From positions 1 through 35,830 of the IMG/VR virus record IMGVR_UViG_3300006921_000058: a DNA stretch of 35,830 bases. The stretch is one strand, 5' to 3'. The DNA comes from a virus. The first letter of the stretch is position 1, and each line of letters begins with the position of its first letter. The notes under the pieces were generated by a model, which was given only the letters and a program-made list of their open reading frames with translations, searched no databases and was not told the origin of the DNA. Shown piece after piece: positions 21,233-35,799 of this stretch. The position numbers were made by a program, and so were the translations under genes.

Positions 21233-24200
21233 ATGTACGAAATAGAAGGCGTAAAGATAACTAGAGAACAACTAGAAGCTGAAGCTAAAAGAAGAGGTAT
21301 AACTTTTGAAGCTCTACTAGCTGCTAACAAAGGCAAGATAGTAGAAGTTGACGAGAACGGAGCGCCTATTCTGCAAGCTGAAATTGTTGAAGAGCCAATA
21401 GTTGAGACTCAAGATCCTAGACTTTTATCAATTCAAGAGCAAGATAGATTTGCTGACTCAATAATGAATCCAGCTAAGTATGATCCTGCAAATGTAAAGT
21501 ATGAAAGCCCAAAAGGCCAAATGGTTATGGGGCAGCCTGTACTTTCAGGTGGCTTTGAAGTTGAAAACATTGCAGGTCCTGATTTTACCCCTATAAATAC
21601 AGAAGAACTTGAAGCTTTAAAAGCTGCAGAAGGGTATGACAATAGTATCGCTAGTTATAATAAAAAGATACAAGAGATAATGAACATGCAAGGCGTATCT
21701 CAAGCTGATAAATTAAAACTAGTAAACGAAGAGCCTTTACCTAAGTTTCAAGAGCAACAAACATATCCAGGAGTTTCTGGTTATAAAGAACCTCAAGGAT
21801 TACTTGCTGAAACAATAGAAGAAAAACCAGAACTAGTTGAAAACGAGTACTTGATGACAAATAAAAGAAATCAAGTTAATGAAATTATAGGTCCAGTTGG
21901 TAATGAAGAGATGGTATTTGGCGAAACAGACGCTATACAAACTGACAAAGAGCTAGAAGAAAAAGCTGCTGAATCTTATATTTCTATGAGACAAAATGAT
22001 CCTATAATAAAAGCTAGATTAGAAGAATACAAAAAAATGTATCTTCCTAATGTTGAAGCTTATATGAACGATCTTGTAGATAAAGGTACTTATGACACTA
22101 GTACTCAAGCAGGTGTTAATGCTATGCAACAGGCTGTTAATACTTATTACGCTAATTTAATAGAACAAGCAATGCAGCAAGACAACGCTGTAAATATTCA
22201 AAGTAATAAAATAGCTGAATTAATAGAGCAAGAACTTGGCAACAAACAAGTTGCTATGGGTAGAAATAAAAGTAAATTTTATAGTTTTTTTGATCAAGTA
22301 CAATCTTATATAAAGCCTCTTCCTCTACCTGGAATAACAAAAACTTTTTTAACAGGAAGTGTTGATTTTGCAGAAAGCTTAGCTGTTAACGTTGCAGACT
22401 TCACATTCGATATGGGTAACACTATTGGAGCTCAAGTAGATGGTATGCAGATTAAGGCTAATAAAGAGGCTCTTGCTAAACTTCAAGATCTTAGAGACAA
22501 AGGAGGAAAAGACGATGATGAAGTTACTATAGAAATAACAAATCCACTTGGACCTTCCTATCCCCCTATATCACAAACAGGAACTATATTTGGTCTTGAA
22601 CTAAAAGCTGGATCAAACAAAATGCGAGGTACTGAATCTTTGCTAGAAAACATCGATCAAATTGAAGAGTTTGAAGGTTTTCAAAATTTATCAAAGAAAG
22701 CTAAGTTCACTGACGGTATATCTTTTTCAGATTTAACAATAGCTTTAGGTCAATCTTTACCACAAATGGCAGCTGTTACGCTAGGCACTGGTGCCGCTAT
22801 GATACCAGGAGTCGGTCCAGTTGCAGCTGGTGTAGTAGGAGCTATGGGTCAAGTTGCTGCTACTAGTTATTTCTATGCTGATGAATATATGAATGCTGTA
22901 AAGCAAGGTATACTAGATAATCCAGATGAATATCCAGGTGGTGATACTAAAGAAAATATGCTTAAAGCTATTGAAAGCGGTGAGTTTGACAATGTAGCTC
23001 AAGATATAGCTATGGCAGGTACTATGAGTTTACTAGAAAGAATTGGTGCTAAAGGTCAATTAAAAGCTGCTCAAGCCGTGTTTAAAAAACATGGCATTAA
23101 AAACGGTGTTAACAAAATGTATTACGATGGTGTAAAACATTATTTAGATAAAGTAAAAATAAATGCTGTTAATTTAAATAGATCAGGTAGGAACGAGCTT
23201 ATAACTGAGTTTTTTCAAACTGGACTTTCTCAAGTTAATAAAGGTATTAAAGGTGAAGGTGGTATTAATGATGCTTTAAGATTTGTAGAACCTGAAGAGT
23301 TATTAGAAGCTTCTTTAGCTGGTTATTCTATGGGTGTTGCTTTACCTTTTGCTGGAAGTATTAAATCACAGGTTTCAGATCCTATAAATTTAGCTAAAAA
23401 TTATGTTAAAGAATTTAATTTTAAAAAGCCTGCATCTAATATAACTAGAACAGAAAAGTTTTTTGCTGAATTAAAAGAACAAATAAAAAAGAAATACTCT
23501 GATACTGACGGTAACATAATTAAGAAAAAAGAATATCAAGATGAAATAGCTAGATTATCAGCACTAAGGAATGCTGGTATTAAAATGCCTATAAACTTTA
23601 GTAAAATACAAAGACAAGAAGCTACAGATCTTATATTAGAAAAAGATAATTTACTTAAAGAAAACGAAACTATACTACCAGAATTTCAAAATGATAACAA
23701 AGCTAGAATAAATCAAATAAATAAAAGATTAAATGATTTAGCCGAAGTTGAAATACAAACAAGAGGTGTTGCGGATGTTACTACTCAGTTAGATGACGAC
23801 ATCGTAGATACATTTTTAACTTTTGATACTTCAAAAGAATTACAAGAGTGGTTAGAAAGTAAGAATATTAAAGACGCTGAAAAAAGATCACAACAAAGAG
23901 GATTATCTTTAAACATAGATGGTGTAGAATATTCTATTCAAAATAATGAAAAAAATTCTAAAGATGGTTTCTTTTCAGGGATGCATGAAACATTACATAA
24001 GTTTCTTAAAAACACACTAAAAACTAATCCTGAAGTTGTTTTTCCAATAGCTAAAATATTAAAGAAAAGATTAGTTGAGCTGCAAAAAGATCCTAGAGTT
24101 AGTAAAGAAGCTTTAAAATCACTAGATAATACTTTACAACAATATAAAGACGATGAAAGCGTAACTAGTAGAGAAGAAGCTGAAGAGGTAATTACTTTAT

Positions 24201-27200
24201 TTAGTGAGTTTGCTAACAAAGGTCTTATACCTTTTGAGTCTAAAAGGTTTCAAGGTTTTAGAGACGCTACTAGAAGATTAATGCAAGAATTACCAGGTGC
24301 TAAAAACTTAAAGTTTAAAAATGAATTAGACGTGTTTAATTTTATAAAGGATTATAACAAGTCTATACGTAAAGGAAGGTTTACTAGAGCTCAAGTAAGG
24401 GCCGCTAGAGAAGGCATAGACATAGGAGAAGATATACAACAAGTTGCTGATGCAGAAGAAGCAGCAAGACAACCTAGTGATAGAGATTTAAAGCAAGCAA
24501 AAGATATTGCTATTGATGAGATAATAGAAAATAAAAACACTAACGACGAAGGCGTTCAAACAGAGTTAGCTTATCAATTTTATGACGACGTTCTTAGATA
24601 TATAAAATCTGGAAGATTTAAAATAAACGGTGTACCTGTAATTGAAAATCCTAAAATAGCAGGTGTTATAGATGAAGATGGTTTTAGAACAGAAGGAGCT
24701 GTTACTATAGAAGATTTAGCAATGGATATAATTCTTTCTGATAGAGGAGTAAAAGGTATTGTAGCTGAATACTTTAAAAAGCCTGTTAATGAAAGAGGTA
24801 CTTTAGGACAGTTTGTTGGTGGAGGTAAATTTGATTTATATAGAGCTACTGAAATAGCAGCTAAAACTCTAGGCATGCAGTCTCAGGAGATTCAACAAGA
24901 AACAACTGAGGATTTTAGCAAAGCAGAAAAACCATCGTTAAGAAAAAGTATGCTAGATTTGTCTGAAGAAATAGAGCAGCAAGAAGATGTAGAAGCTTTA
25001 GCTACAGACATGGCAGAAGCAGCTAGTAAAATATTAAAAGGTAAAATAAAAGCACCAACATCAAAAGACTTTATTCAAGACTTACAAAAACAATCTAGTG
25101 ATCTAGCTTTTAAAAGAGTTAAAAAATTAATGGGTACACCAAAGTCAGAGCAGTATACTAAGTTTATAGAAGATTATGCTTTAGCTATATTAAATAAAAC
25201 AGCTCAGACTACATTAAACAAAAGGTTTAACCAGCTTACTGAGCCTGTAATAGATCCAGAAACTGGCAAGCAAGTTAGAACATTGACAGATGAATCAAGA
25301 GCTGAAGGATCAAGAGTTAAAAATCCTTATGCTGGTAATCCTAAAAGACGATTAAAACCTGATCTAGATGTTCAAGACATGTTAGAGTATTTTACACCTG
25401 AAAAAGGAAGAAGAGATGCTAAACAGAATACGCTAGCAGAAGTAGCTGCATTTGAATTTATTGTAGATGCTATGCCTGAAGCTCTTAAAACACAGCTAGA
25501 TGATGGTACTACTATTGCTGAAAGAAGAGCAGAGTTATTTGGACAAGATGTTGTTAATGCAGAAATAGCTTACATAGCTAGAGAACTAGGTAGAGGGGTA
25601 GATTATAAAGCCGCTAAAAATATTGTATTACCTGCTGAACTTGCAGAAGAGTTTGACGCTGTTAAAGATCAAATAGTTCAAGCAGCTCAAGAATATGGTA
25701 TTGGTATTGATGAAGAATACACTGAAGGTTTTTCTCAAGCAATTGAAGGTGTTGATCCTAGAATTACAGAATCAATAGTAGATATAATGTTTACTGAAGA
25801 CCCTGACTTAGCTACAGGTGGTGAGTTTGTAAAAGGATCTATAGAATCTTTAGAAGCAGCAGGTTTTCCAGAAGTTGCAGCTGAAATAAAAAATAGAAAT
25901 CTTATAGCTGTAAGCAATAGAAAAGGAATTAGAGTTATAAATGAAGCACCAGCAAAAAATTTAAATAAACTTGGTCAAACAATTACTAAAAGTTTACTAG
26001 ATAATAGATTAGTAAAATCTTGGAATAAAACTTTAGACTTTTTAGGATATTCTAACAGATTATTGAACGCTGCAAAGGAAACTTTAAACAAAGCTACCGG
26101 TCAAATAGAGCAGGGTCCTTTCTATGTTGACAGATTAAAAGCTCAAGGATCAAGTTACACAAACGAGTCTCAAGTAAAAGATATTGTTATTTCAGATATA
26201 AAACCAATGAATAAGAGTTTTGGTTATATGCAAAAGTTTAGTAAAAAAGTTTTTTCTACTGTTAGCTTAGAATCTAAATTAGCTATGGTTGAAAAAGAAA
26301 GAAATATAATTGAAGCAGCTGGTATTGCTAATAAAAAAGTTTTAAGTAAGTTAGTTTTAGCAATGCAAAAAGATCTAGCATCTGGTAAAAGAATTACTAA
26401 GTCTCAAGTGTATCAGTTTTTTCAACTACAAACAGGTGTAATAAAAGGTTTAAGAGCTTTAACTAGTCTTGATTATCTTTACTTAATAGAAGGTAACCAA
26501 TGGATTGAAGGTAAAGTAAGACCTAAAAAATCTACATTTTTAGAACTTAATGAAGAACAACAAGAAGCTAAACTACAAGAATTTATTAACGAGTTTCCTG
26601 AGTTTAAAGGTAGATATGATATAAGATTACAACAGAAGTTAGATCAAGGATTAGAATTTGTAGAGGCAAGATATGAAGCTGCATTTAATCCTACTCTTTC
26701 TGCTTATAGAGATTTAAAAACGAAAGGAGAGCATTTAGTACCTAATTCAGTTACTATGCTTGAATTATTTGATGGTGTAATTAGAAACAATTTAGATCAA
26801 GCTAAGTTAGATCAAATACTAGCTGGTCATGGTCAGTTCTTTGGGCCTAATTATGTTGCTGATCTTTTAGATAGTAAAGGTATTGAAGGCGGTAAAAAGA
26901 CAGGACTAACTAGTCAAGAAGGTATATTTAGATTAAGTAAGTTTTTAAAAAATAGACCTGACATAAGCAATAACATCTATGCTCCAAACGGAAATAAAGC
27001 TTTTCAAGAAATAGTAAATACAGAAATATTTTTTAAAGCTTCTGAAGATCTTAACAACTCTATAAAAGAAGCTAAAGATATTGATGTTGATATGCTTAAA
27101 GCTTTAGATGTAATACAATTTGACGAAGCGCCAAGCATGAACCAGGTGTTACAAAAAGCTAAGATAATAGATGATGCTTTAAAAATAGCTAGAAATGTAA

Positions 27201-29740
27201 ACGCTCCTATTAAAAAAATTAGAGTATTTGATTTTGATGATACACTTGCTACAAGTAATAACATCGTAATAGCCACTAGTCCTGATGGTACTACAACAGA
27301 GTTAAATGCAGAAGAGTTTGCTGAAAAAGGAGCAGACTTAAAAAATCAAGGTTACACAATGGACTTTAGTGATTTTAATAGAGTAACTGATGGTGGTCGT
27401 GGTCCTTTATTTAAAGTAGCAGAAAAAATTAGAAATGCAAGAGGTAATGAAGATCTTTTTGTATTAACAGCAAGAGCACCTGAATCTCAAGGAGCTATAT
27501 ATGATTTTTTAAAATCACAAGGATTAGAGTTTAAGAAAGAAAACATAGTTGGTTTAGGTAATTCTACTGGTGAGGCTAAAGCAAATTGGATAATTAGTAA
27601 AGCTGCTGAAGGTTATAATGATTTTTATTTTGCAGATGATGCAATACAAAACGTTAATGCAGTAAGAAAAGCACTTGATGTTATTGATGTTAAGTCACAG
27701 GTTCAGCAAGCTAAAATGAAATTTGCTAAAAATATTGATGTTGACTTTAATAAGATAATTGAACAAAAAACAGGTATTGCTGCTGAAAAAGAATTTAGTG
27801 AAGCTAAAGCTCAAGTAAGAGGTGCTAATAAAAATAAATTTCAATTCTTTATACCTTATTCTGCAGAAGATTTTCAAGGTTTAATATATCCTCTACTATC
27901 TAAAGGCACTTTAGGTGACGCTCAAATGGCTTGGTTTAAAACGCATTTATCTGATCCTTATGCTAGAGCAATGGAAAACCTATCGCAAGATAGACTTAAC
28001 CTAATGAATGATTTTAAAACATTAAAGAAAAAGTTAAACGTTCCTAAAGACTTACAAAAAGAAACTGAAAGTGGCTTTTCAAATGAACAAGCAGTTAGAG
28101 TTTATTTATGGAATAAACAAGGTTTAGATATACCTGGTCTTTCAAAAACAGATACAAAAGAATTAGTTAAGCAAGTTGAAACAGATCCTACTTTGCATGA
28201 GTTTGCAGATCAAATTAGTACTATAAATAAAGATCCTTATACTAAGCCCGATAAAAGCTGGTTAGCTGGTAGTATAACTTCTGACTTACTAAGAGGTTTA
28301 AGACAGGTTAAGCGTCCAAAGTACTTAGAAGAGTGGCAGCAAAATGCTGATTTAATATTTAGCGAAAAAAATCTTAACAAGCTTGAAGCTGCTTATGGTC
28401 CTAAGTATAGAGAAGCTATGGAAAACATACTTAAACGTATGAAGTCAGGTAGCAATAGAGTTGGTGAAGCAAGTAGGCTAGGTGGTACAATACTTAACTA
28501 TATAAATGGATCTAACGCTGCTATAATGTTCTTCAATACTAGATCTGCTATACTACAGACAATATCAAGTATAAACTTTTTAAATTGGAACTTTAATAAC
28601 CCATTAAAAGCAGGACAAGCATTTGCTAATCAACCTCAATACTGGAAAGATTTCATGACATTGATGAACTCAGACTTTTTAAGAGATAGACGTAATGGTT
28701 TAAGAATAAATATAACTGAATCTGAAATAGCTGACGCTGCTAAAACATCTAAGAACAAAGCTAAAGCAGCTATGGCATACATATTAGAAAAAGGTTATCT
28801 ACCTACACAGTATGCTGACAGCTTTGCTATTGCAACTGGAGGAGCTACGTTTTACCGTAATAGAATTAAAGATCTAGTTAAAAATCAAAACATGTCTGAA
28901 GCTGATGCTGAGAAACAAGCTATGCGAGAGTTTAGAGAAATATCAGAAGAAAATCAGCAATCAAGTAGACCTGATAAAATATCACAACAACAATCTAGTG
29001 ATGCTGGTCGTTTAATACTTATGTTTGCTAACACACCTATGCAATATGCTCGACTACAAAAAAGAGCTATTCAAGATTTAGCTAATGGAAGAGGTGACTC
29101 AAAAACTAACGTTAGTAAGTTAATTTATTATGGCGTTGTACAGAATATTATATTTAACTCTTTACAACAAGCTATGTTTGCTATAGGATTTGGAGATGAT
29201 GATGAAGAAAAAGACGAGAAAAGAGTTACAAGAACATTAAACGGTATGCTTGATTCTTTATTAAGAGGTTTAGGTATAGCTGGCGCTACCACGTCTATAG
29301 TTAAAAACTTTTTAGCTGACATATACGAAAGATCAGGTAGAAAAAGACCAGAATATGTAGACTCTGTATATGAATTGTTAAGAATATCTCCGCCTATAGG
29401 TAGTAAAATATCTAAAGTAAGACAAGCTGCATTTATGTTTGATAGTAAGAAAAGACGTAAAGAAATAATGGACATGGGCTTTAGTATTAAAAGCCCAGCA
29501 TTTATGGCTTTTGCAAAAGTAGTATCTGCTACAGCTAACATACCTCTTGATAGAGTATTACAAAAGTTTGATAATATAGAAGGTGCTCTAGGTGAAGATG
29601 CTGAGACATGGCAAAGAATAGCAATGCTAGCAGGTTGGCCTAAATGGGATATACAACCTGATGGTAAGAGCGAAGATAAAAAGAAAAATAAAAAGAAAAT
29701 TAATATTAAAAATGTAAAACTTAAAAAAAGAAGCATATGA
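21233..29740 (+). CDS. Giant multidomain internal virion protein with zincin and HAD motifs (2835 aa)
   Basis: At 8.5 kb this is the largest gene here. A hydrophobic Gly/Ala/Val segment lies near residues 503-545, and a second membrane-like stretch near 2628-2651 (LIYYGVVQNIIFNSLQQAMF). A zincin motif HETLH sits at 918-922, with acidic residues Glu981, Glu982, Glu984 and Glu985 downstream as possible third ligands. A complete HAD phosphatase signature spans about 1997-2140: DFDDT at 2000-2004, LTAR at 2078-2081 and ADDAIQN from 2134, with Asp2135-Asp2136. The C-terminal part (FANTPMQYARLQKRA near 2597) resembles giant or polyvalent proteins of marine phages from memory. It is probably ejected with the genome and may act on the envelope and host molecules. 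It lacks a DxDGD polymerase motif, so it is not a virion RNA polymerase by that test. Confidence 0.75.
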   Translation: MYEIEGVKITREQLEAEAKRRGITFEALLAANKGKIVEVDENGAPILQAEIVEEPIVETQDPRLLSIQEQDRFADSIMNPAKYDPANVKYESPKGQMVMGQPVLSGGFEVENIAGPDFTPINTEELEALKAAEGYDNSIASYNKKIQEIMNMQGVSQADKLKLVNEEPLPKFQEQQTYPGVSGYKEPQGLLAETIEEKPELVENEYLMTNKRNQVNEIIGPVGNEEMVFGETDAIQTDKELEEKAAESYISMRQNDPIIKARLEEYKKMYLPNVEAYMNDLVDKGTYDTSTQAGVNAMQQAVNTYYANLIEQAMQQDNAVNIQSNKIAELIEQELGNKQVAMGRNKSKFYSFFDQVQSYIKPLPLPGITKTFLTGSVDFAESLAVNVADFTFDMGNTIGAQVDGMQIKANKEALAKLQDLRDKGGKDDDEVTIEITNPLGPSYPPISQTGTIFGLELKAGSNKMRGTESLLENIDQIEEFEGFQNLSKKAKFTDGISFSDLTIALGQSLPQMAAVTLGTGAAMIPGVGPVAAGVVGAMGQVAATSYFYADEYMNAVKQGILDNPDEYPGGDTKENMLKAIESGEFDNVAQDIAMAGTMSLLERIGAKGQLKAAQAVFKKHGIKNGVNKMYYDGVKHYLDKVKINAVNLNRSGRNELITEFFQTGLSQVNKGIKGEGGINDALRFVEPEELLEASLAGYSMGVALPFAGSIKSQVSDPINLAKNYVKEFNFKKPASNITRTEKFFAELKEQIKKKYSDTDGNIIKKKEYQDEIARLSALRNAGIKMPINFSKIQRQEATDLILEKDNLLKENETILPEFQNDNKARINQINKRLNDLAEVEIQTRGVADVTTQLDDDIVDTFLTFDTSKELQEWLESKNIKDAEKRSQQRGLSLNIDGVEYSIQNNEKNSKDGFFSGMHETLHKFLKNTLKTNPEVVFPIAKILKKRLVELQKDPRVSKEALKSLDNTLQQYKDDESVTSREEAEEVITLFSEFANKGLIPFESKRFQGFRDATRRLMQELPGAKNLKFKNELDVFNFIKDYNKSIRKGRFTRAQVRAAREGIDIGEDIQQVADAEEAARQPSDRDLKQAKDIAIDEIIENKNTNDEGVQTELAYQFYDDVLRYIKSGRFKINGVPVIENPKIAGVIDEDGFRTEGAVTIEDLAMDIILSDRGVKGIVAEYFKKPVNERGTLGQFVGGGKFDLYRATEIAAKTLGMQSQEIQQETTEDFSKAEKPSLRKSMLDLSEEIEQQEDVEALATDMAEAASKILKGKIKAPTSKDFIQDLQKQSSDLAFKRVKKLMGTPKSEQYTKFIEDYALAILNKTAQTTLNKRFNQLTEPVIDPETGKQVRTLTDESRAEGSRVKNPYAGNPKRRLKPDLDVQDMLEYFTPEKGRRDAKQNTLAEVAAFEFIVDAMPEALKTQLDDGTTIAERRAELFGQDVVNAEIAYIARELGRGVDYKAAKNIVLPAELAEEFDAVKDQIVQAAQEYGIGIDEEYTEGFSQAIEGVDPRITESIVDIMFTEDPDLATGGEFVKGSIESLEAAGFPEVAAEIKNRNLIAVSNRKGIRVINEAPAKNLNKLGQTITKSLLDNRLVKSWNKTLDFLGYSNRLLNAAKETLNKATGQIEQGPFYVDRLKAQGSSYTNESQVKDIVISDIKPMNKSFGYMQKFSKKVFSTVSLESKLAMVEKERNIIEAAGIANKKVLSKLVLAMQKDLASGKRITKSQVYQFFQLQTGVIKGLRALTSLDYLYLIEGNQWIEGKVRPKKSTFLELNEEQQEAKLQEFINEFPEFKGRYDIRLQQKLDQGLEFVEARYEAAFNPTLSAYRDLKTKGEHLVPNSVTMLELFDGVIRNNLDQAKLDQILAGHGQFFGPNYVADLLDSKGIEGGKKTGLTSQEGIFRLSKFLKNRPDISNNIYAPNGNKAFQEIVNTEIFFKASEDLNNSIKEAKDIDVDMLKALDVIQFDEAPSMNQVLQKAKIIDDALKIARNVNAPIKKIRVFDFDDTLATSNNIVIATSPDGTTTELNAEEFAEKGADLKNQGYTMDFSDFNRVTDGGRGPLFKVAEKIRNARGNEDLFVLTARAPESQGAIYDFLKSQGLEFKKENIVGLGNSTGEAKANWIISKAAEGYNDFYFADDAIQNVNAVRKALDVIDVKSQVQQAKMKFAKNIDVDFNKIIEQKTGIAAEKEFSEAKAQVRGANKNKFQFFIPYSAEDFQGLIYPLLSKGTLGDAQMAWFKTHLSDPYARAMENLSQDRLNLMNDFKTLKKKLNVPKDLQKETESGFSNEQAVRVYLWNKQGLDIPGLSKTDTKELVKQVETDPTLHEFADQISTINKDPYTKPDKSWLAGSITSDLLRGLRQVKRPKYLEEWQQNADLIFSEKNLNKLEAAYGPKYREAMENILKRMKSGSNRVGEASRLGGTILNYINGSNAAIMFFNTRSAILQTISSINFLNWNFNNPLKAGQAFANQPQYWKDFMTLMNSDFLRDRRNGLRINITESEIADAAKTSKNKAKAAMAYILEKGYLPTQYADSFAIATGGATFYRNRIKDLVKNQNMSEADAEKQAMREFREISEENQQSSRPDKISQQQSSDAGRLILMFANTPMQYARLQKRAIQDLANGRGDSKTNVSKLIYYGVVQNIIFNSLQQAMFAIGFGDDDEEKDEKRVTRTLNGMLDSLLRGLGIAGATTSIVKNFLADIYERSGRKRPEYVDSVYELLRISPPIGSKISKVRQAAFMFDSKKRRKEIMDMGFSIKSPAFMAFAKVVSATANIPLDRVLQKFDNIEGALGEDAETWQRIAMLAGWPKWDIQPDGKSEDKKKNKKKINIKNVKLKKRSI

Positions 29741-29895
29741 GACATAGATCATCCGCAATACCAATGACTAAGTATGAAACGCCTATGGCGTTGAAAGATG
29801 CTTGTTATTACAAAGCTAAAAAAGCACATAAAGTTTTTCCATCAGCTTATGCTAGTGGTATGATAGCTAAATGTAGAAAAAACAAAGGTAAATGA
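29737..29895 (+). CDS. Small virion-associated-type protein (52 aa)
   Basis: The frame starts at the ATG overlapping the giant gene's TGA (ATGA) and ends by ATGA overlap with the next gene. The product is basic, with a motif region ACYYKAKKAHKVFPSAYASG (residues 22-41) and KCRKNKGK at the end. From memory, SAYASG plus KCRK is a recurring pattern in small proteins of marine phage structural operons. Function is unknown. Two cysteines (23 and 46) might pair or bind metal. The double ATGA coupling and recognisable motif make it a real gene despite its size. Confidence 0.75.
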   Translation: MRHRSSAIPMTKYETPMALKDACYYKAKKAHKVFPSAYASGMIAKCRKNKGK

Positions 29896-30422
29896 TTTTA
29901 AAAGACTTTGACTACAGTAAGTTTAAAAAAACAAAGCCACCTAAGGATAATTCTTTAGAGACGTTTAAAGAAATACAGTCCATCAATAAGCTTAGGCAAG
30001 ATGAAAAGTTTGTCAAAGATCATGATGATATATATGACGCTTACGTTAGCGTTGTAGGTAAGGAAGATGGTGAGCAAATAAAAGAATTAATCAACGACTC
30101 AAACGATGTAATACTTAAATTAAAAAAGTATTTTAATAGACCAAGACCTAAAAAATTAGCTAAGAATTTTGGAATAAAATTAGAAGATATAGAACTTGAT
30201 TCTATGAAAACACCTTCATATCCTTCTGGACATTCTGCTCAAGGATATTTAATAGCTGAAATATTAAAAGATAAATACCCTACAAAGTCTGCAGAGCTAG
30301 ATAAAAAAGCAAAAGATATTTCTGATAGTAGAAATATAGCTAGAGCTCATTACAAATCAGACAGTGATTTTGGTAAGAAAATAGGTTTAGACATGGCTAA
30401 ACACTTAAAAGGTAATGTATGA
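29892..30422 (+). CDS. PAP2-family phosphatase, soluble (176 aa)
   Basis: All three motifs of the type 2 phosphatidic acid phosphatase / class A acid phosphatase family are present: K-x6-RP at residues 76-84 (KLKKYFNRP), PSGH at 111-114, and SR-x5-H-x3-D at 146-157. His153 would be the nucleophile, His114 the acid, and Lys76, Arg83 and Arg147 would hold the phosphate. There is no signal peptide and no clear membrane segment, unlike cellular lipid phosphatases, so a soluble enzyme like the acid phosphatases is more likely. The substrate is unknown: lipid phosphates, nucleotides or pyrophosphates are possible. It is coupled by ATGA overlaps to genes on both sides in the late block, so it may be virion-packaged. 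Confidence 0.85.
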   Translation: MILKDFDYSKFKKTKPPKDNSLETFKEIQSINKLRQDEKFVKDHDDIYDAYVSVVGKEDGEQIKELINDSNDVILKLKKYFNRPRPKKLAKNFGIKLEDIELDSMKTPSYPSGHSAQGYLIAEILKDKYPTKSAELDKKAKDISDSRNIARAHYKSDSDFGKKIGLDMAKHLKGNV

Positions 30423-31090: not shown

Positions 31091-31249
31091 TTAAAATTTT
31101 ATACTTATTCCAAAAGATAGAACCACAACTCCGCTAGCTATAGCTAACTCGTTTGGTCCTAGCTTTGGTTTTTGTTTATGCCATAGCATATTGCCAGCAG
31201 CAAAAGACATCAACGAGATGCCTCCTATTATTGCTATTTTCTTTGTCAT
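31091..31249 (-). CDS. Small two-helix membrane protein (52 aa)
   Basis: The frame starts with an ATGA overlap on the nrdJ stop codon. Two hydrophobic stretches lie at about residues 4-22 (KIAIIGGISLMSFAAGNML) and 34-49 (LAIASGVVVLSFGISI), joined by a short basic loop HKQKPKLG. This layout is a hairpin in the membrane, seen in small holins and many phage microproteins. No lysis enzyme is nearby, so a holin role is only a possibility. The exact coupling to nrdJ and the clean hydrophobic pattern support it as a gene. Confidence 0.6.
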   Translation of the reverse strand: MTKKIAIIGGISLMSFAAGNMLWHKQKPKLGPNELAIASGVVVLSFGISIKF

Positions 31250-33108
31250 GTTATTTCACATGCGCCTCCTACGCAAGCTAATTCCCCAGCCAAATCAGTT
31301 TCATCATCAACCTCTACTATATCTGTAAGATTAACATCAGTTAAACTTTTCATCATAGTTTCGTATTTAGATTTATCTATATCTTCAAATGGAGCTTGAG
31401 TATATGTACCACCATCGTAAGGTAAGACAGATAGCCCATTATAATAATCCCTATTGTCCCACATCCACTTACCTGCTTTAGGCCAGTCATCTTGCTTTAA
31501 GCTAACAGTAGCTGAAACATTATGAGTATTACTACCACGCTTGTGACCTGGTCTTACCCATTCAGTAGCTACTTTTTTTATACGCTCAAGCAAGTCAAAT
31601 GGTGACTCAGTTCTAAGTATAGCGTTAGCTGGAGCTTTTTGAGGTATACTAATAACAGCAGTGTCATGAGGTCTAAAGTATTCATCTTCAATTAAGTCAG
31701 GGTGGTTTTCAACTAAGTACTTATACATACTTTCGTTTTTACCAACTCTAACTCTACGTACATAATAATCATTATGCCATGCATGAATACCAGATGAAGT
31801 TCCTAATGCCAGAGATGTCGTCCCAGCAGGCTTCACGGTTGTACATCTTGCAGCTGTTTTAATACCTATTTTTTTAGCTGTTTGTTTGTTTTTGCTTACT
31901 ACTATATCTGCAGCTTCCGTCATATCCAACTGCAGCACAGCGGCAGAGCCTATTCCTGTCATTGATACACCTATAAGGGCGTCCTTCTCTGTCGTATCTT
32001 TCCATATGTCTCTTAAATAATGAAAGTCAGTGTAACCTGCTTGTAATGTACCTATAAAAGAAGCAGCTCTACACCTATCGTTAAAATCAATTTGATCAAC
32101 TATGTCGCTAGCGTTTACCTCACATAGGTTACAAAACTGAAAAGGTCTTAATGCTATTTCGCAACAAGGATTTGTACCCCAGTCTTTATCATTGTTAAAA
32201 TAAATACCTGGTTCACCTGCACCTGATAGCTCAATACGTTTCCATAGGTCCATAAAAAACCCTTTGTTTATTTTATGCCTCATAAGTACAGCTGAATTAT
32301 TAGCTCGACCTCTTTGGGGTGATTCTTCCCACCAGTGGCCAGACTTACAACCTATCATTGCTTCATCGTCAGCAGAAAACAAACTAATCAACGCAGCTCT
32401 ACGTATACCACCTGCTAACACAGCGTCTGCTATGTGACAAACAATATCATGAGCTTGCAATGTAGTTAATTTGTCTCCGTCTTCTACATCTTGCAATATT
32501 CCTTGTATTTTTACAATACACTCTTTCAAAGGTTGTGGACCTGGAGCTTTACCACCAGACGTAACTAGTTGAGCTCCCTTTGGTCTTATATCAGAATAAT
32601 CAAACATGATCTTAGATGATCTCTTAGAGCCCATATAAGATGTTATTAATATCTTTATTGCGTCAGCCCATCCTTCAATACTGTCACCAATTAAATGTCT
32701 TCTAGTTCTTTTACTATAAGGTTGGTTAACCGCGGGTAGTTTACCAACATGATGTCGTTGAACTGAATACCCCACGCCTGTACCACCTAGTAATAAGAAC
32801 ATTATTTCATGAAAACACTCAGTGCTATCAATAGGTAAATAAGCACAATTATAAACTCGATTAGGCGAGATTTCAATTGGCTTACCTCCAAATTGTAATG
32901 ATCGCATAGACGGTAAAACCTTCTTTTCATATACAAATTTATAAGCAGCTTCAATTTCATCAACAAGTTTAGGATATTTTTTAATATGCATATTCTTGTT
33001 TCTAGTAACTAATTCTTCCCATGTCTCTCTACGATTTAACTCAGGTACGTACTTAGCATACTTCATGTAAACAGTTATATCACTTAGTATCTTGTTGCTT
33101 ATCTCCAT
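31246..33108 (-). CDS. nrdJ: Class II adenosylcobalamin-dependent ribonucleotide reductase, monomeric (620 aa)
   Basis: This enzyme makes deoxynucleotides, using coenzyme B12 to form the radical, with no oxygen need. The RTPR-type core is complete. NPCCEI at 313-318 gives Asn313, thiyl Cys315 and Glu317. Cys88 (in YNCAYLPID) and Cys326 match the active-site disulfide pair. The C-terminal swinging-arm cysteines are Cys612 and Cys617. These match Lactobacillus RTPR N406/C408/E410, C119/C419 and C731/C736 in spacing. At 620 residues it is shorter than RTPR (about 739). RTPR-type enzymes act on triphosphates, so it would yield dCTP directly. It overlaps the 71-aa gene by 29 bases and the membrane gene by ATGA. 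Confidence 0.93.
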   Translation of the reverse strand: MEISNKILSDITVYMKYAKYVPELNRRETWEELVTRNKNMHIKKYPKLVDEIEAAYKFVYEKKVLPSMRSLQFGGKPIEISPNRVYNCAYLPIDSTECFHEIMFLLLGGTGVGYSVQRHHVGKLPAVNQPYSKRTRRHLIGDSIEGWADAIKILITSYMGSKRSSKIMFDYSDIRPKGAQLVTSGGKAPGPQPLKECIVKIQGILQDVEDGDKLTTLQAHDIVCHIADAVLAGGIRRAALISLFSADDEAMIGCKSGHWWEESPQRGRANNSAVLMRHKINKGFFMDLWKRIELSGAGEPGIYFNNDKDWGTNPCCEIALRPFQFCNLCEVNASDIVDQIDFNDRCRAASFIGTLQAGYTDFHYLRDIWKDTTEKDALIGVSMTGIGSAAVLQLDMTEAADIVVSKNKQTAKKIGIKTAARCTTVKPAGTTSLALGTSSGIHAWHNDYYVRRVRVGKNESMYKYLVENHPDLIEDEYFRPHDTAVISIPQKAPANAILRTESPFDLLERIKKVATEWVRPGHKRGSNTHNVSATVSLKQDDWPKAGKWMWDNRDYYNGLSVLPYDGGTYTQAPFEDIDKSKYETMMKSLTDVNLTDIVEVDDETDLAGELACVGGACEIT

Positions 33109-33295
33109 TGCTTTTTTCTTTTACTTTTTCTTTTACTTTACCCAAAGCATTGTCGTAATCAGACATCTGCTTCATCGTTTCTAACGTACCAAAAGATACT
33201 GTTCTTAAATATTCAACTTCACTATACAAATGCTGAACAACATTTGTTAATGATTGAACTTTGTTTTTCATTTCTATTAAAGTTTGTTCTTTCAT
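33080..33295 (-). CDS. Small coiled-coil protein (71 aa)
   Basis: This is a helical, charged protein with heptad-like spacing from about residue 5 to 35 (KVQSLTNVVQHLYSEVEYL) and a Lys/Glu-rich tail. There is no catalytic motif. It starts by ATGA overlap with the 44-aa gene and overlaps the start of nrdJ by 29 bases, so it is translated as part of the same chain. It may be an oligomerising or accessory protein. I do not recognise the family. Confidence 0.6.
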   Translation of the reverse strand: MKEQTLIEMKNKVQSLTNVVQHLYSEVEYLRTVSFGTLETMKQMSDYDNALGKVKEKVKEKSNGDKQQDTK

Positions 33296-33426
33296 CTTCC
33301 TTGTCCTATATATTTTTTCTTGTAATTCACACTTGTTTTAGAATTAGATGTTCTACATTTACTGTGAATACCTGGTCTTTTTTTACGGGTTTTTACCCGA
33401 TACGGTGATAATGTCAGTTTCGCCAT
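33292..33426 (-). CDS. Tiny basic protein with GQGR tail (44 aa)
   Basis: The frame starts at ATG 33426 inside the 64-aa gene (44-base overlap, different frame) and ends by ATGA overlap with the 71-aa gene. The product has 14 Lys/Arg and no Asp/Glu, with RPGIHSKCRTSNSKTS in the middle and NYKKKYIGQGR at the end. From memory this basic ending, near KKYRGQGR, recurs in tiny proteins of Bacteroidota phages. The strong charge suggests nucleic-acid binding. Its precise coupling and the recognisable ending support a real gene. Confidence 0.7.
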   Translation of the reverse strand: MAKLTLSPYRVKTRKKRPGIHSKCRTSNSKTSVNYKKKYIGQGR

Positions 33427-33577
33427 ACTCTTTACTATATTTAATTAAATCTTTATATTTTAAATAACCTTTACTTTGTATGCTCCAGTCTATAAACTGT
33501 TGAAGTTTACGTCTAGCATACATACGTCTTGCTATATCTTTCTTTTCCCAAGAATTAAGTTCACGGTTTCGTCGCAT
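33383..33577 (-). CDS. Small basic helical protein (64 aa)
   Basis: The N-terminus is Arg/Lys-rich with the helix SWEKKDIARRMYARRKLQQF (about residues 9-28), followed by a second helix around YLKYKDLIKYSKEYGE. No family is recognised. It overlaps the end of the resolvase gene by 46 bases, which is long; the ATG at codon 19 (base 33523) would remove the overlap and is an alternative start. A nucleic-acid-binding role is plausible from charge only. Confidence 0.5.
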   Translation of the reverse strand: MRRNRELNSWEKKDIARRMYARRKLQQFIDWSIQSKGYLKYKDLIKYSKEYGETDIITVSGKNP

Positions 33578-33984
33578 TCTTTTTGATTTTGTGGTTTATA
33601 TAACGAATACTTTGGCATTTTATAAGCGATATATTTTTTAAACAACTTCCAGCGTATTGGGAAAGACTCGTTAGGTCTACCCTTACATTCAATGATGAAG
33701 TTATCTCCAATAAAATCAGGCGTATAACGAAGGCCACGTATTTTTTTATCTCCTCTATCTTTGAACTCTCCTTTAGAGTTCGCTTGTCTTTCATAACATT
33801 TATTTTTAAAGTTAAAAGAAGGGACAAGCTCGTAAGTTTGTCCCTCGTATTTAGCTTTTATCTTAGCTTTTTTTAAAGCTATGTACATATATTTTTCAAG
33901 ACCTGACTGAAACATTATACCGTCATGCTGAACCTTTTTAGATCTAACAGGACCGCGTTTTTTATACTGGCGAGATCGCATCAT
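33532..33984 (-). CDS. T7 endonuclease I-type Holliday junction resolvase (150 aa)
   Basis: A PD-(D/E)XK nuclease is clear. SGLE gives Glu30, RYTPDF gives Asp90, and IIECKG gives Glu99 and Lys101, matching T7 gp3 Glu20, Asp55, Glu65 and Lys67 in order and near spacing. An insertion of about 25 residues lies between the first helix and TPDF. T7 gp3 resolves branched DNA during packaging and helps degrade host DNA. The length of 150 is typical (gp3 has 149). The start overlaps the preceding MazG-like gene by 23 bases. Codon 2 is also Met, so translation could begin there. Confidence 0.85.
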   Translation of the reverse strand: MMRSRQYKKRGPVRSKKVQHDGIMFQSGLEKYMYIALKKAKIKAKYEGQTYELVPSFNFKNKCYERQANSKGEFKDRGDKKIRGLRYTPDFIGDNFIIECKGRPNESFPIRWKLFKKYIAYKMPKYSLYKPQNQKECDETVNLILGKRKI

Positions 33985-34285
33985 CCCAGTCTAATTGAGC
34001 ACTGCTGCTGCTAAATGCCGCGTGATCTGCAGCTTTAATAGCATCAGCTACTAACTTATCATTAAGCTCTTCTTTAGCAGCTTGAATATATAGAATAGCG
34101 TCCATTAACTCTTCTTGAACATCGTTTAAATAGCCAGCTAAATCTTTATGCTTGCCAGTTCTTTCATCGTGTAGTGTTCTACCGTACTTAGCATAGCCAA
34201 CATCAGAACGTTTAACAAACTTGTCGCAGACTCTTTCTACAACAGGATCTCTGAATAATATAGTCTTACTTTTCATCCTTAACAA
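33962..34285 (-). CDS. MazG-superfamily pyrophosphohydrolase-like protein (107 aa)
   Basis: The stretch AGYLNDVQEELMDAILYI (about 50-67) carries Glu58-Glu59 and Asp62 in the all-alpha NTP pyrophosphatase pattern (E-E-x-x-D), after a KYGRTL segment typical of phage dNTP pyrophosphohydrolases. A second acidic helix follows around residues 71-75 (KEELND). Such enzymes cut dNTPs to dNMPs. The second metal-binding helix pair is less clear than in full MazG, so partners or a dimer may complete the site. It overlaps the upstream MazG fusion gene by 20 bases and the resolvase gene downstream. Start choice between 34285 and 34276 is open. Confidence 0.65.
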   Translation of the reverse strand: MLRMKSKTILFRDPVVERVCDKFVKRSDVGYAKYGRTLHDERTGKHKDLAGYLNDVQEELMDAILYIQAAKEELNDKLVADAIKAADHAAFSSSSAQLDWDDAISPV

Positions 34286-35120
34286 ATGTTCCGTTAACCA
34301 TTTTACCAGTACGTTTAGATATTACTTCGTATGCTGCGTCTATACACTCTTCAATTGTTGTACCACCAAGATGAGCCATATTAGTCAACACTACTACCAT
34401 ATCGCCTATAGCATCTACAAACTCAGGTTGATCATCTTTAAGTACAGCACGACCTAGTTCACCAGCTTCTTCCATTAGTTTACAGAACTGAGTCTTCTTA
34501 TCACCTTTAGTATACAAGCCTCTTTCACCAGCCCAGTCTCTTATTTTTTGAAACCTTTCGCTTTCTGAACTATCATACCTCCAATTGCCATTAGAATTAG
34601 ATCTACTACCAATTTGATCAAAATATTCTTGATAAGCATCTTTTTGTTTTTGTACTTGGAAGTACTTAGCAAATGCTTTATTATATATATAACATCTCTC
34701 CATTGTATATTGAGATGTTGTTACATTCTTCATTATCCACTTTATAGTTTCCATGTTAATTTCAAATGTGCCGTGTATTGTTTCCCACGTTTTACCCATA
34801 TTATCCATTAACCTACCTTTTAATTTTGTAGCTGGACAAGGGAACGTAGAAGTCTGCTCTGTCGCGTTTATGTGCATTGTATTAGATTTTATTTTATTAA
34901 TATATAGATCTTTATATTTTTGTCTGTCAACTCGATAGCCATAAGACTGTTGAAGTTCTATCTCGCGGTCAGATATGTAATTAATATCTGTGCTTTGATC
35001 TAGAACTTCTATTTCGTCTAAGTCGTAGCCTTGCTGGTCAACAACTCTGGATATAAGATCACGTGTAACACCTATTTTTTTACCCGGTATATGGTATAAA
35101 TAATAATTTATTTTATCCAT
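34266..35120 (-). CDS. GIY-YIG-like domain fused to MazG-type pyrophosphohydrolase (284 aa)
   Basis: Residues about 188-278 form a MazG domain with EEAGE at 217-221 and EFVDAIGD at 233-240, giving Glu218, Glu221, Asp236 and Asp240 as metal ligands; it would hydrolyse a (d)NTP to the monophosphate and PPi. The N-terminus, about 5-70, follows the GIY-YIG plan: YYLYHI, then KKIGVT at 14-19, Arg25 and an acidic DREIELQ at 51-57. The Tyr of YIG is Lys, so nuclease activity is uncertain. The middle (100-165) has an unassigned domain with KTWETIHGTF and RCYIYNKAF. It overlaps the upstream TS-fold gene by 8 bases, so the two are translated together. Confidence 0.75.
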   Translation of the reverse strand: MDKINYYLYHIPGKKIGVTRDLISRVVDQQGYDLDEIEVLDQSTDINYISDREIELQQSYGYRVDRQKYKDLYINKIKSNTMHINATEQTSTFPCPATKLKGRLMDNMGKTWETIHGTFEINMETIKWIMKNVTTSQYTMERCYIYNKAFAKYFQVQKQKDAYQEYFDQIGSRSNSNGNWRYDSSESERFQKIRDWAGERGLYTKGDKKTQFCKLMEEAGELGRAVLKDDQPEFVDAIGDMVVVLTNMAHLGGTTIEECIDAAYEVISKRTGKMVNGTFVKDEK

Positions 35121-35799
35121 ATGTTCTAGCTCTTGATGTTAATGTATTTTGTTCTGGTAACTGATCATCGTAAATATGTAAGTTATGTGCAAAATGATAA
35201 TACGTACCAACATCATAACCCGTGCGTTTAGAGACCATCTCTTGCAGTTTACTGAATTGATATTGATCATTGCAGAAACCAAACCAAAGATCATTAGATC
35301 GCATCGTAACGCACATATTTAATTTATTATTTAACACTGTAAATTGTACGGCATAAGTACAAGGCGTATCGTGTCTGTATCTGGTAATTTCTTTACCATC
35401 ATATATAGATACACAAGCTTGTCTTGTATTAGGATTTTCCTTTAACATAGCCACAACTTTATCTAATTGATAACCTCTTTCCCACTGATAACCATAGTTA
35501 GAGTTAACTCTACCATTACCATCAGACATATCCTGCCATATTTTAGGTATCTTACCATATATTTCACCAAGCTTAGCTGTAGATGGATCACCTGACAAAT
35601 ACCATTGCCATTCAGCTTCAGCATATTCAACATTGAAGTTTCTAGCTTCATTAGTTATCATGCGATCTGTAGGATTTTCAATAGTAAAGCCTTGATTAAA
35701 CATTGCTTTTGTATTGTCGAATCTTTCTCCTTCATACGATATAACGCCATAGTAAAAGTCAAAAGCTTCGCTTGCGTTTTTAAATGTTAATTGTCTCAT
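35113..35799 (-). CDS. Thymidylate-synthase-fold enzyme, probable dCMP hydroxymethylase (228 aa)
   Basis: TS-fold residues are intact: catalytic Glu63 (EWQWYLSGD), PKIWQ at 85-89, Cys147 in DTPCT, Arg167 in MRSND, and His208/Tyr210 in LHIY. The decisive site, Asn177 in E. coli TS, is Asp178 here (WFGFCND, 172-178), as in T4 dCMP hydroxymethylase (Asp179, FGFRND). The stretch NSNYG at 99-103 also matches T4 gp42 from memory. The expected reaction is dCMP plus methylenetetrahydrofolate to 5-hydroxymethyl-dCMP. Length 228 is close to gp42 (246). It heads the - block as far as the window shows and overlaps the MazG fusion gene. Thymidylate synthase is the alternative; the Asp argues against it. 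Confidence 0.8.
   Translation of the reverse strand: MRQLTFKNASEAFDFYYGVISYEGERFDNTKAMFNQGFTIENPTDRMITNEARNFNVEYAEAEWQWYLSGDPSTAKLGEIYGKIPKIWQDMSDGNGRVNSNYGYQWERGYQLDKVVAMLKENPNTRQACVSIYDGKEITRYRHDTPCTYAVQFTVLNNKLNMCVTMRSNDLWFGFCNDQYQFSKLQEMVSKRTGYDVGTYYHFAHNLHIYDDQLPEQNTLTSRARTYG

Follow-up and report, generated by a model that had tools for sequence, protein, structure and literature searches.

Bacteriophage T4, in which 5-hydroxymethylcytosine (hmC) is proven, needs a phage-encoded kinase for 5-hydroxymethyl-dCMP (hm-dCMP), and its EndoII cuts cytosine-containing host DNA. In metagenomes, the phenotype-linked MetaGPA survey associated thymidylate synthase (TS)-type enzymes with Asp177, together with a MazG/PRA-PH partner, with modified-cytosine DNA (PMC8670742). 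Residues 177 (Asn to Asp) and 147 were the top two positions tied to modified-cytosine contigs, TS domains co-occurred with PRA-PH (PF01503), and DNA ligase domains constituted another core (PMC8670742).

Here we analyzed a window of 35.8 kb that corresponds to the complete IMG/VR record IMGVR_UViG_3300006921_000058, a genome fragment. Structural genes occupy its plus strand, and the minus strand at the right end carries a block of genes which probably supplies hm-dCMP for the phage genome. The ORF coordinates of the earlier note agree with those recomputed by us, and its description of the frames as mostly overlapping is correct: consecutive genes overlap by 8, 11, 23 and 46 bp, followed by an 87-bp gap and a final overlap of 29 bp. 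The order primase/helicase, p82, TS, MazG, p107, nuclease, RNR (ribonucleotide reductase) is shared by the great majority of some 100 related contigs, a recurrence far beyond chance, and the gene block is real. Elsewhere in the window, a giant virion-region protein of 2835 aa (21233-29740, plus strand) contains a HAD/polynucleotide-kinase-phosphatase-like stretch (aa 1986-2171; phrog_415, E-value = 1.3e-6), and a gene for a PAP2/PhoC-like phosphatase (29892-30422, plus strand) lies between the structural genes and the block.

The TS-fold protein of the block has 228 aa (35113..35799, minus strand; PF00303, E-value = 1.3e-30). In an alignment with E. coli ThyA, T4 gp42 and MilA, Asp178 (codon 35266..35268, minus strand) occupies the position of E. 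coli Asn177, which bears out the earlier proposal of a TS fold with Asp at the base-recognition site. The same alignment places Cys147-Thr148 (35356..35361, minus strand) at the nucleophile and at the position of E. coli His147; this Cys-Thr pair is shared with T4 gp42 and MilA, whereas ThyA has Cys-His. The best matches in the PDB sequence search are CMP-5-hydroxymethylase (5b6d, 6.6e-22) and T4 gp42 (1b49, 3.8e-19), both scoring above every true thymidylate synthase, and hhalign relates gp42 to the 228-aa protein with a probability of 99.6%. The Cys-Thr pair and the Asp are kept in all 80 scored relatives, these being the first IMG/VR relatives fetched, one of which (L044) has no Arg before the conserved Asp. 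The C-terminus of ThyA has a role in methylation; according to the alignment its closing segment is absent from the 228-aa protein, as would be expected if hydride transfer were unneeded. With CMP and dCMP hydroxymethylases as the nearest structures and the Cys-Thr plus Asp signature, the assignment of the enzyme as a predicted dCMP hydroxymethylase, which the earlier note had already put forward, is well supported by sequence.

The next gene (34266..35120, minus strand) encodes a protein of 284 aa in which a GIY-YIG-like domain, overlooked before, is fused to a MazG pyrophosphohydrolase, a candidate dCTPase. The fusion matches PF03819 (1.1e-4) and PF01503 (2.1e-4), both just above the cut-off, as well as phrog_1992 (1.6e-33), and its AF2 model has a pLDDT of 77. 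The N-terminal domain (aa 1-62; 34935..35120, minus strand) has a beta-beta-alpha-beta-alpha arrangement in this model, with Tyr9, Arg25 and Glu53 invariant. Its Pfam matches, all with weak E-values, are to T5orf172 in 12 of 18 members, MUG113 in nine of 18 and GIY-YIG in three of 18; no GIY-YIG chain was among the matches listed in a fold search with the whole fusion model, where matches to the MazG domain filled the list. The latter domain (aa 186-271; 34308..34565, minus strand) adopts the MazG fold in the predicted model and contains the EExxE motif. Structural alignment (VIA-align) gave Z-scores of 10.1 to 1vmg (82 aligned residues, rmsd 2.1), 9.6 to the MazG-like protein of cyanophage S-2L (7ody) and 8.9 to mouse dCTPase (6sqz). 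Profile comparison of the fusion with T4 gp56 and DenA detected no similarity, which does not exclude analogy. A dCTPase role of the MazG domain is plausible, given its conserved pairing with TS and the co-occurrence in MetaGPA; the substrate itself cannot be read from sequence.

The earlier note had counted two MazG proteins in the block. The 284-aa fusion qualifies by PF03819, PF01503 and its modelled fold, but the second, 107-aa protein (ORF 33962-34285) lacks such support: sequence searches found no match to Pfam or PF18909, and profile comparison with the true MazG gave a probability of 1%. It is a small helical protein, likely starting at the ATG at 34276 (33962..34276, minus strand), that matches phrog_11184 of unknown function (6.8e-7) and is modelled by AF2 as all-helical, at low confidence (pLDDT 66). 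Then follow a DUF1064/Holliday-resolvase-like nuclease of 150 aa (33532..33984, minus strand; PF06356, 1.3e-8; phrog_190, 3.8e-11), a small ORF of 64 aa for which family searches yielded no match (33383..33577, minus strand) and one of 71 aa that is kept ahead of the RNR (33080..33295, minus strand). The RNR (620 aa; 31246..33108, minus strand) is of the AdoCbl-dependent, RTPR type, as proposed before: it matches phrog_367 (2e-129) and, with 5e-82 and a score of 276 that is under the curated cut-off of 340, TIGR02505. Its only PDB match is the RTPR of L. leichmannii (1l1l), with which the cysteines of the NPC..CNL and C-terminal CxxxxC motifs align, so that the window RNR is, by sequence, an intact class II enzyme. 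Its identity to the RNR of Microcystis phage Mel-JY01 is 68%, and to those of Vibrio and Oceanospirillum phages about 60%; other phage RNRs are much more distant, a pattern that suggests transfer between phages.

To assess conservation, we considered 104 distinct related TS genes, 103 of them with room downstream. MazG directly adjoins TS in 98 of the 103 loci; in four of the remaining five it lies within about 1.3 kb, and in one (L054) there is none. The pair spans at least two unrelated phage backbones. The RNR varies more: class II was detected in 45 of the distinct loci, and 38 have NrdB/NrdA of class I instead; for example, NrdB and NrdA stand at the site of the class II RNR in one sister phage (L022:3402-6350). 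Thus, the RNR class is exchangeable and the TS-MazG pair nearly constant, and the scheme can do without B12; the 'B12-driven' label of the earlier note describes an incidental feature. On the second backbone, the operon consists of a 315-aa phrog_13881 protein, a 303-aa unknown protein, a PALP enzyme, an Asp-type TS and then the GIY/MazG fusion (L064:5402-8814, L139:4491-8479, L175:5312-8657), and it looks like a hypermodification route.

Genes that might complete the pathway were sought in six relatives of 62-68 kb, which are probably complete genomes (overlapping ends of 143, 348 and 172 bp in G003, G015 and G016, respectively), all classed as linear in IMG/VR. They encode primase-helicase, ERF, exonuclease, ligase and sigma factor. 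None has a match to DNMK (PF21448), cytidylate kinase (PF02224), carbamoyltransferase, or DNA polymerases of families A (PF00476) and B (PF00136), and no glycosyltransferase candidate is present among their early genes. In these six relatives, the expectation that a kinase gene and, as far as the early genes go, glucosylation genes would lie outside the window is therefore not borne out. The missing hm-dCMP kinase, which T4 needs, counts against the pathway. The named terminase relatives are all flavobacterial phages, infecting Flavobacterium, Cellulophaga, Tenacibaculum and Maribacter, and support the Bacteroidota host suggested previously for this marine phage.

From the gene content, residues and gene order that were observed, the following scheme can be envisaged. 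RNR, of class II in the window and of class I in sister phages, would make deoxynucleotides, the MazG domain of the fusion would cut dCTP to dCMP, and the Asp178 enzyme, as its residues and relatives strongly indicate, would hydroxymethylate dCMP. In place of the phage kinase and polymerase that were not found, host nucleotide kinases would have to raise hm-dCMP to hm-dCTP and the host replicative polymerase to insert it. Such a modification would protect the phage DNA against type II restriction by the host. A further, speculative role for the GIY-YIG-like domain and the DUF1064 nuclease would be to cut host DNA, which contains cytosine, in the manner of T4 EndoII. The fullest version of this scenario, a widespread marine flavophage clade free of kinase and polymerase that replaces cytosine by means of host enzymes, uses one fusion both to cut host DNA and to remove dCTP, and escapes the pressure of type II restriction, is at present doubtful.

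The block could also serve ordinary dTMP supply, with the enzyme acting on dUMP, MazG turning dUTP into dUMP and RNR giving dNTPs. RNR, MazG and TS genes are commonly clustered in phages for this purpose, and structures in our fold-search list show the MazG-like protein DR2231 with dUMP analogues bound. However, Asn and His/Ala are replaced by Asp178 and Thr148 throughout the family, and the C-terminus is missing, which makes this explanation highly improbable. Another possibility is that the enzyme methylates dCMP and that 5-methylcytosine takes the place of cytosine in the phage, a situation known from Xanthomonas phage XP12. The change of Asn177 to Asp alone makes TS methylate dCMP, and the MetaGPA selection recovers both 5mC and 5hmC spike-ins (PMC8670742). 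Since the nearest solved enzymes are hydroxymethylases, and the closing segment of methylating TS is missing, we consider methylation unlikely.

Alternatively, hmC might be made and then decorated with a sugar or another group by genes unrecognised here. In seven loci of the other backbone, the TS-MazG pair lies behind the 315-aa, 303-aa and PALP genes, and the 315-aa protein has a weak match to T4 beta-glucosyltransferase; this is a Pfam match only, which the PDB profile search did not confirm, and we rejected the protein as a glucosyltransferase. None of the three genes turned up in window-type loci, the early genes of the long relatives offer no candidate, and a sugar-transferase-like ORF noticed by eye in G009 and G012 is in the tail region only. 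Decoration is quite improbable.

A possible genomic footprint of modification was seen in the frequency of GATC. Among 33 enzyme carriers of the window's backbone, the observed/expected ratio is 0.87-1.59 (median 1.19), compared with a median of 0.21 among 18 related non-carriers, and the C-free palindromes AATT and TTAA are equal between the two groups. In larger terminase-based sets pooled by clade, the ratios are 1.00 (window-like) and 1.18 versus 0.17 for MW202828-like and 0.22 for elemo-like phages, with AATT/TTAA nearly alike. Many of the MW202828-like and elemo-like phages (L273-L351, L352-L398) contain few GATC sites or none, against an expectation of 20-90, and many show near-zero CATG, CTAG or GGCC. 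Of 26 contigs searched for TS (mostly sister-type, with three window-type fragments), a single one encodes it, with Asn at the site and a GATC ratio of 0.04. Contig names reveal that enzyme-carrying and GATC-avoiding phages occur in the same metagenome samples. This comparison comes down to a single clade set against others and includes many fragments, so that host differences could explain it. Moreover, GATC is also depleted in T4 (0.25-0.44 in 24 kb sampled), in Bacteroides phage BF486P2, which has a related enzyme (0.07), and in carriers on other backbones (L024, L064, L139), and palindrome avoidance was rejected as a diagnostic of modification. The absent GATC avoidance in the clade supports cytosine modification but cannot prove it. 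If the reading is true, full cytosine replacement extends to common marine phages of Bacteroidota, which would manage it with fewer genes; the ability of host kinases and polymerase to sustain the pathway becomes testable, and the clade-wide lack of GATC avoidance would be a footprint of base modification searchable in metagenomes.

The locus thus resembles several known systems. T4 has a dCMP hydroxymethylase with Cys148-Thr-Asp179, an RNR and a dCTP-cutting partner of the kind expected here, and its GIY-YIG nuclease DenA adjoins nrdB. By contrast, the six long relatives yielded neither a dNMP kinase nor a DNA polymerase of family A or B, and their early genes no glucosyltransferase; the block has MazG rather than a gp56-like sequence, the GIY-YIG-like domain is fused to this MazG, and the RNR is of class II or I. 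The terminase is shared with flavophages of Elemovirus, Pachyviridae and Pervagoviridae, Elemovirus also having a similar portal and structural gene order, but no Asp-type TS was found in the long relatives examined, and most avoid GATC strongly. Bacteroides phage BF486P2 and its kin, which likewise have a Bacteroidota host, possess the closest isolate enzyme (46% identical), annotated as deoxycytidylate 5-hydroxymethyltransferase; they differ in having no homolog of the window's MazG, two TS-fold genes and strong GATC avoidance. The MetaGPA contigs have a carbamoyltransferase, which the six relatives lack, and share the TS residue signature, the PRA-PH/MazG partner (the window MazG matches PF01503) and, in relatives, DNA ligase (PMC8670742). 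This match of TS residues and PRA-PH is the strongest outside support for our reading, and it also limits novelty, because those contigs already show the same combination. Our literature search found no report connecting this clade with hmC; the core idea of cytosine replacement is known, and this gene assembly is a novel variation on it.
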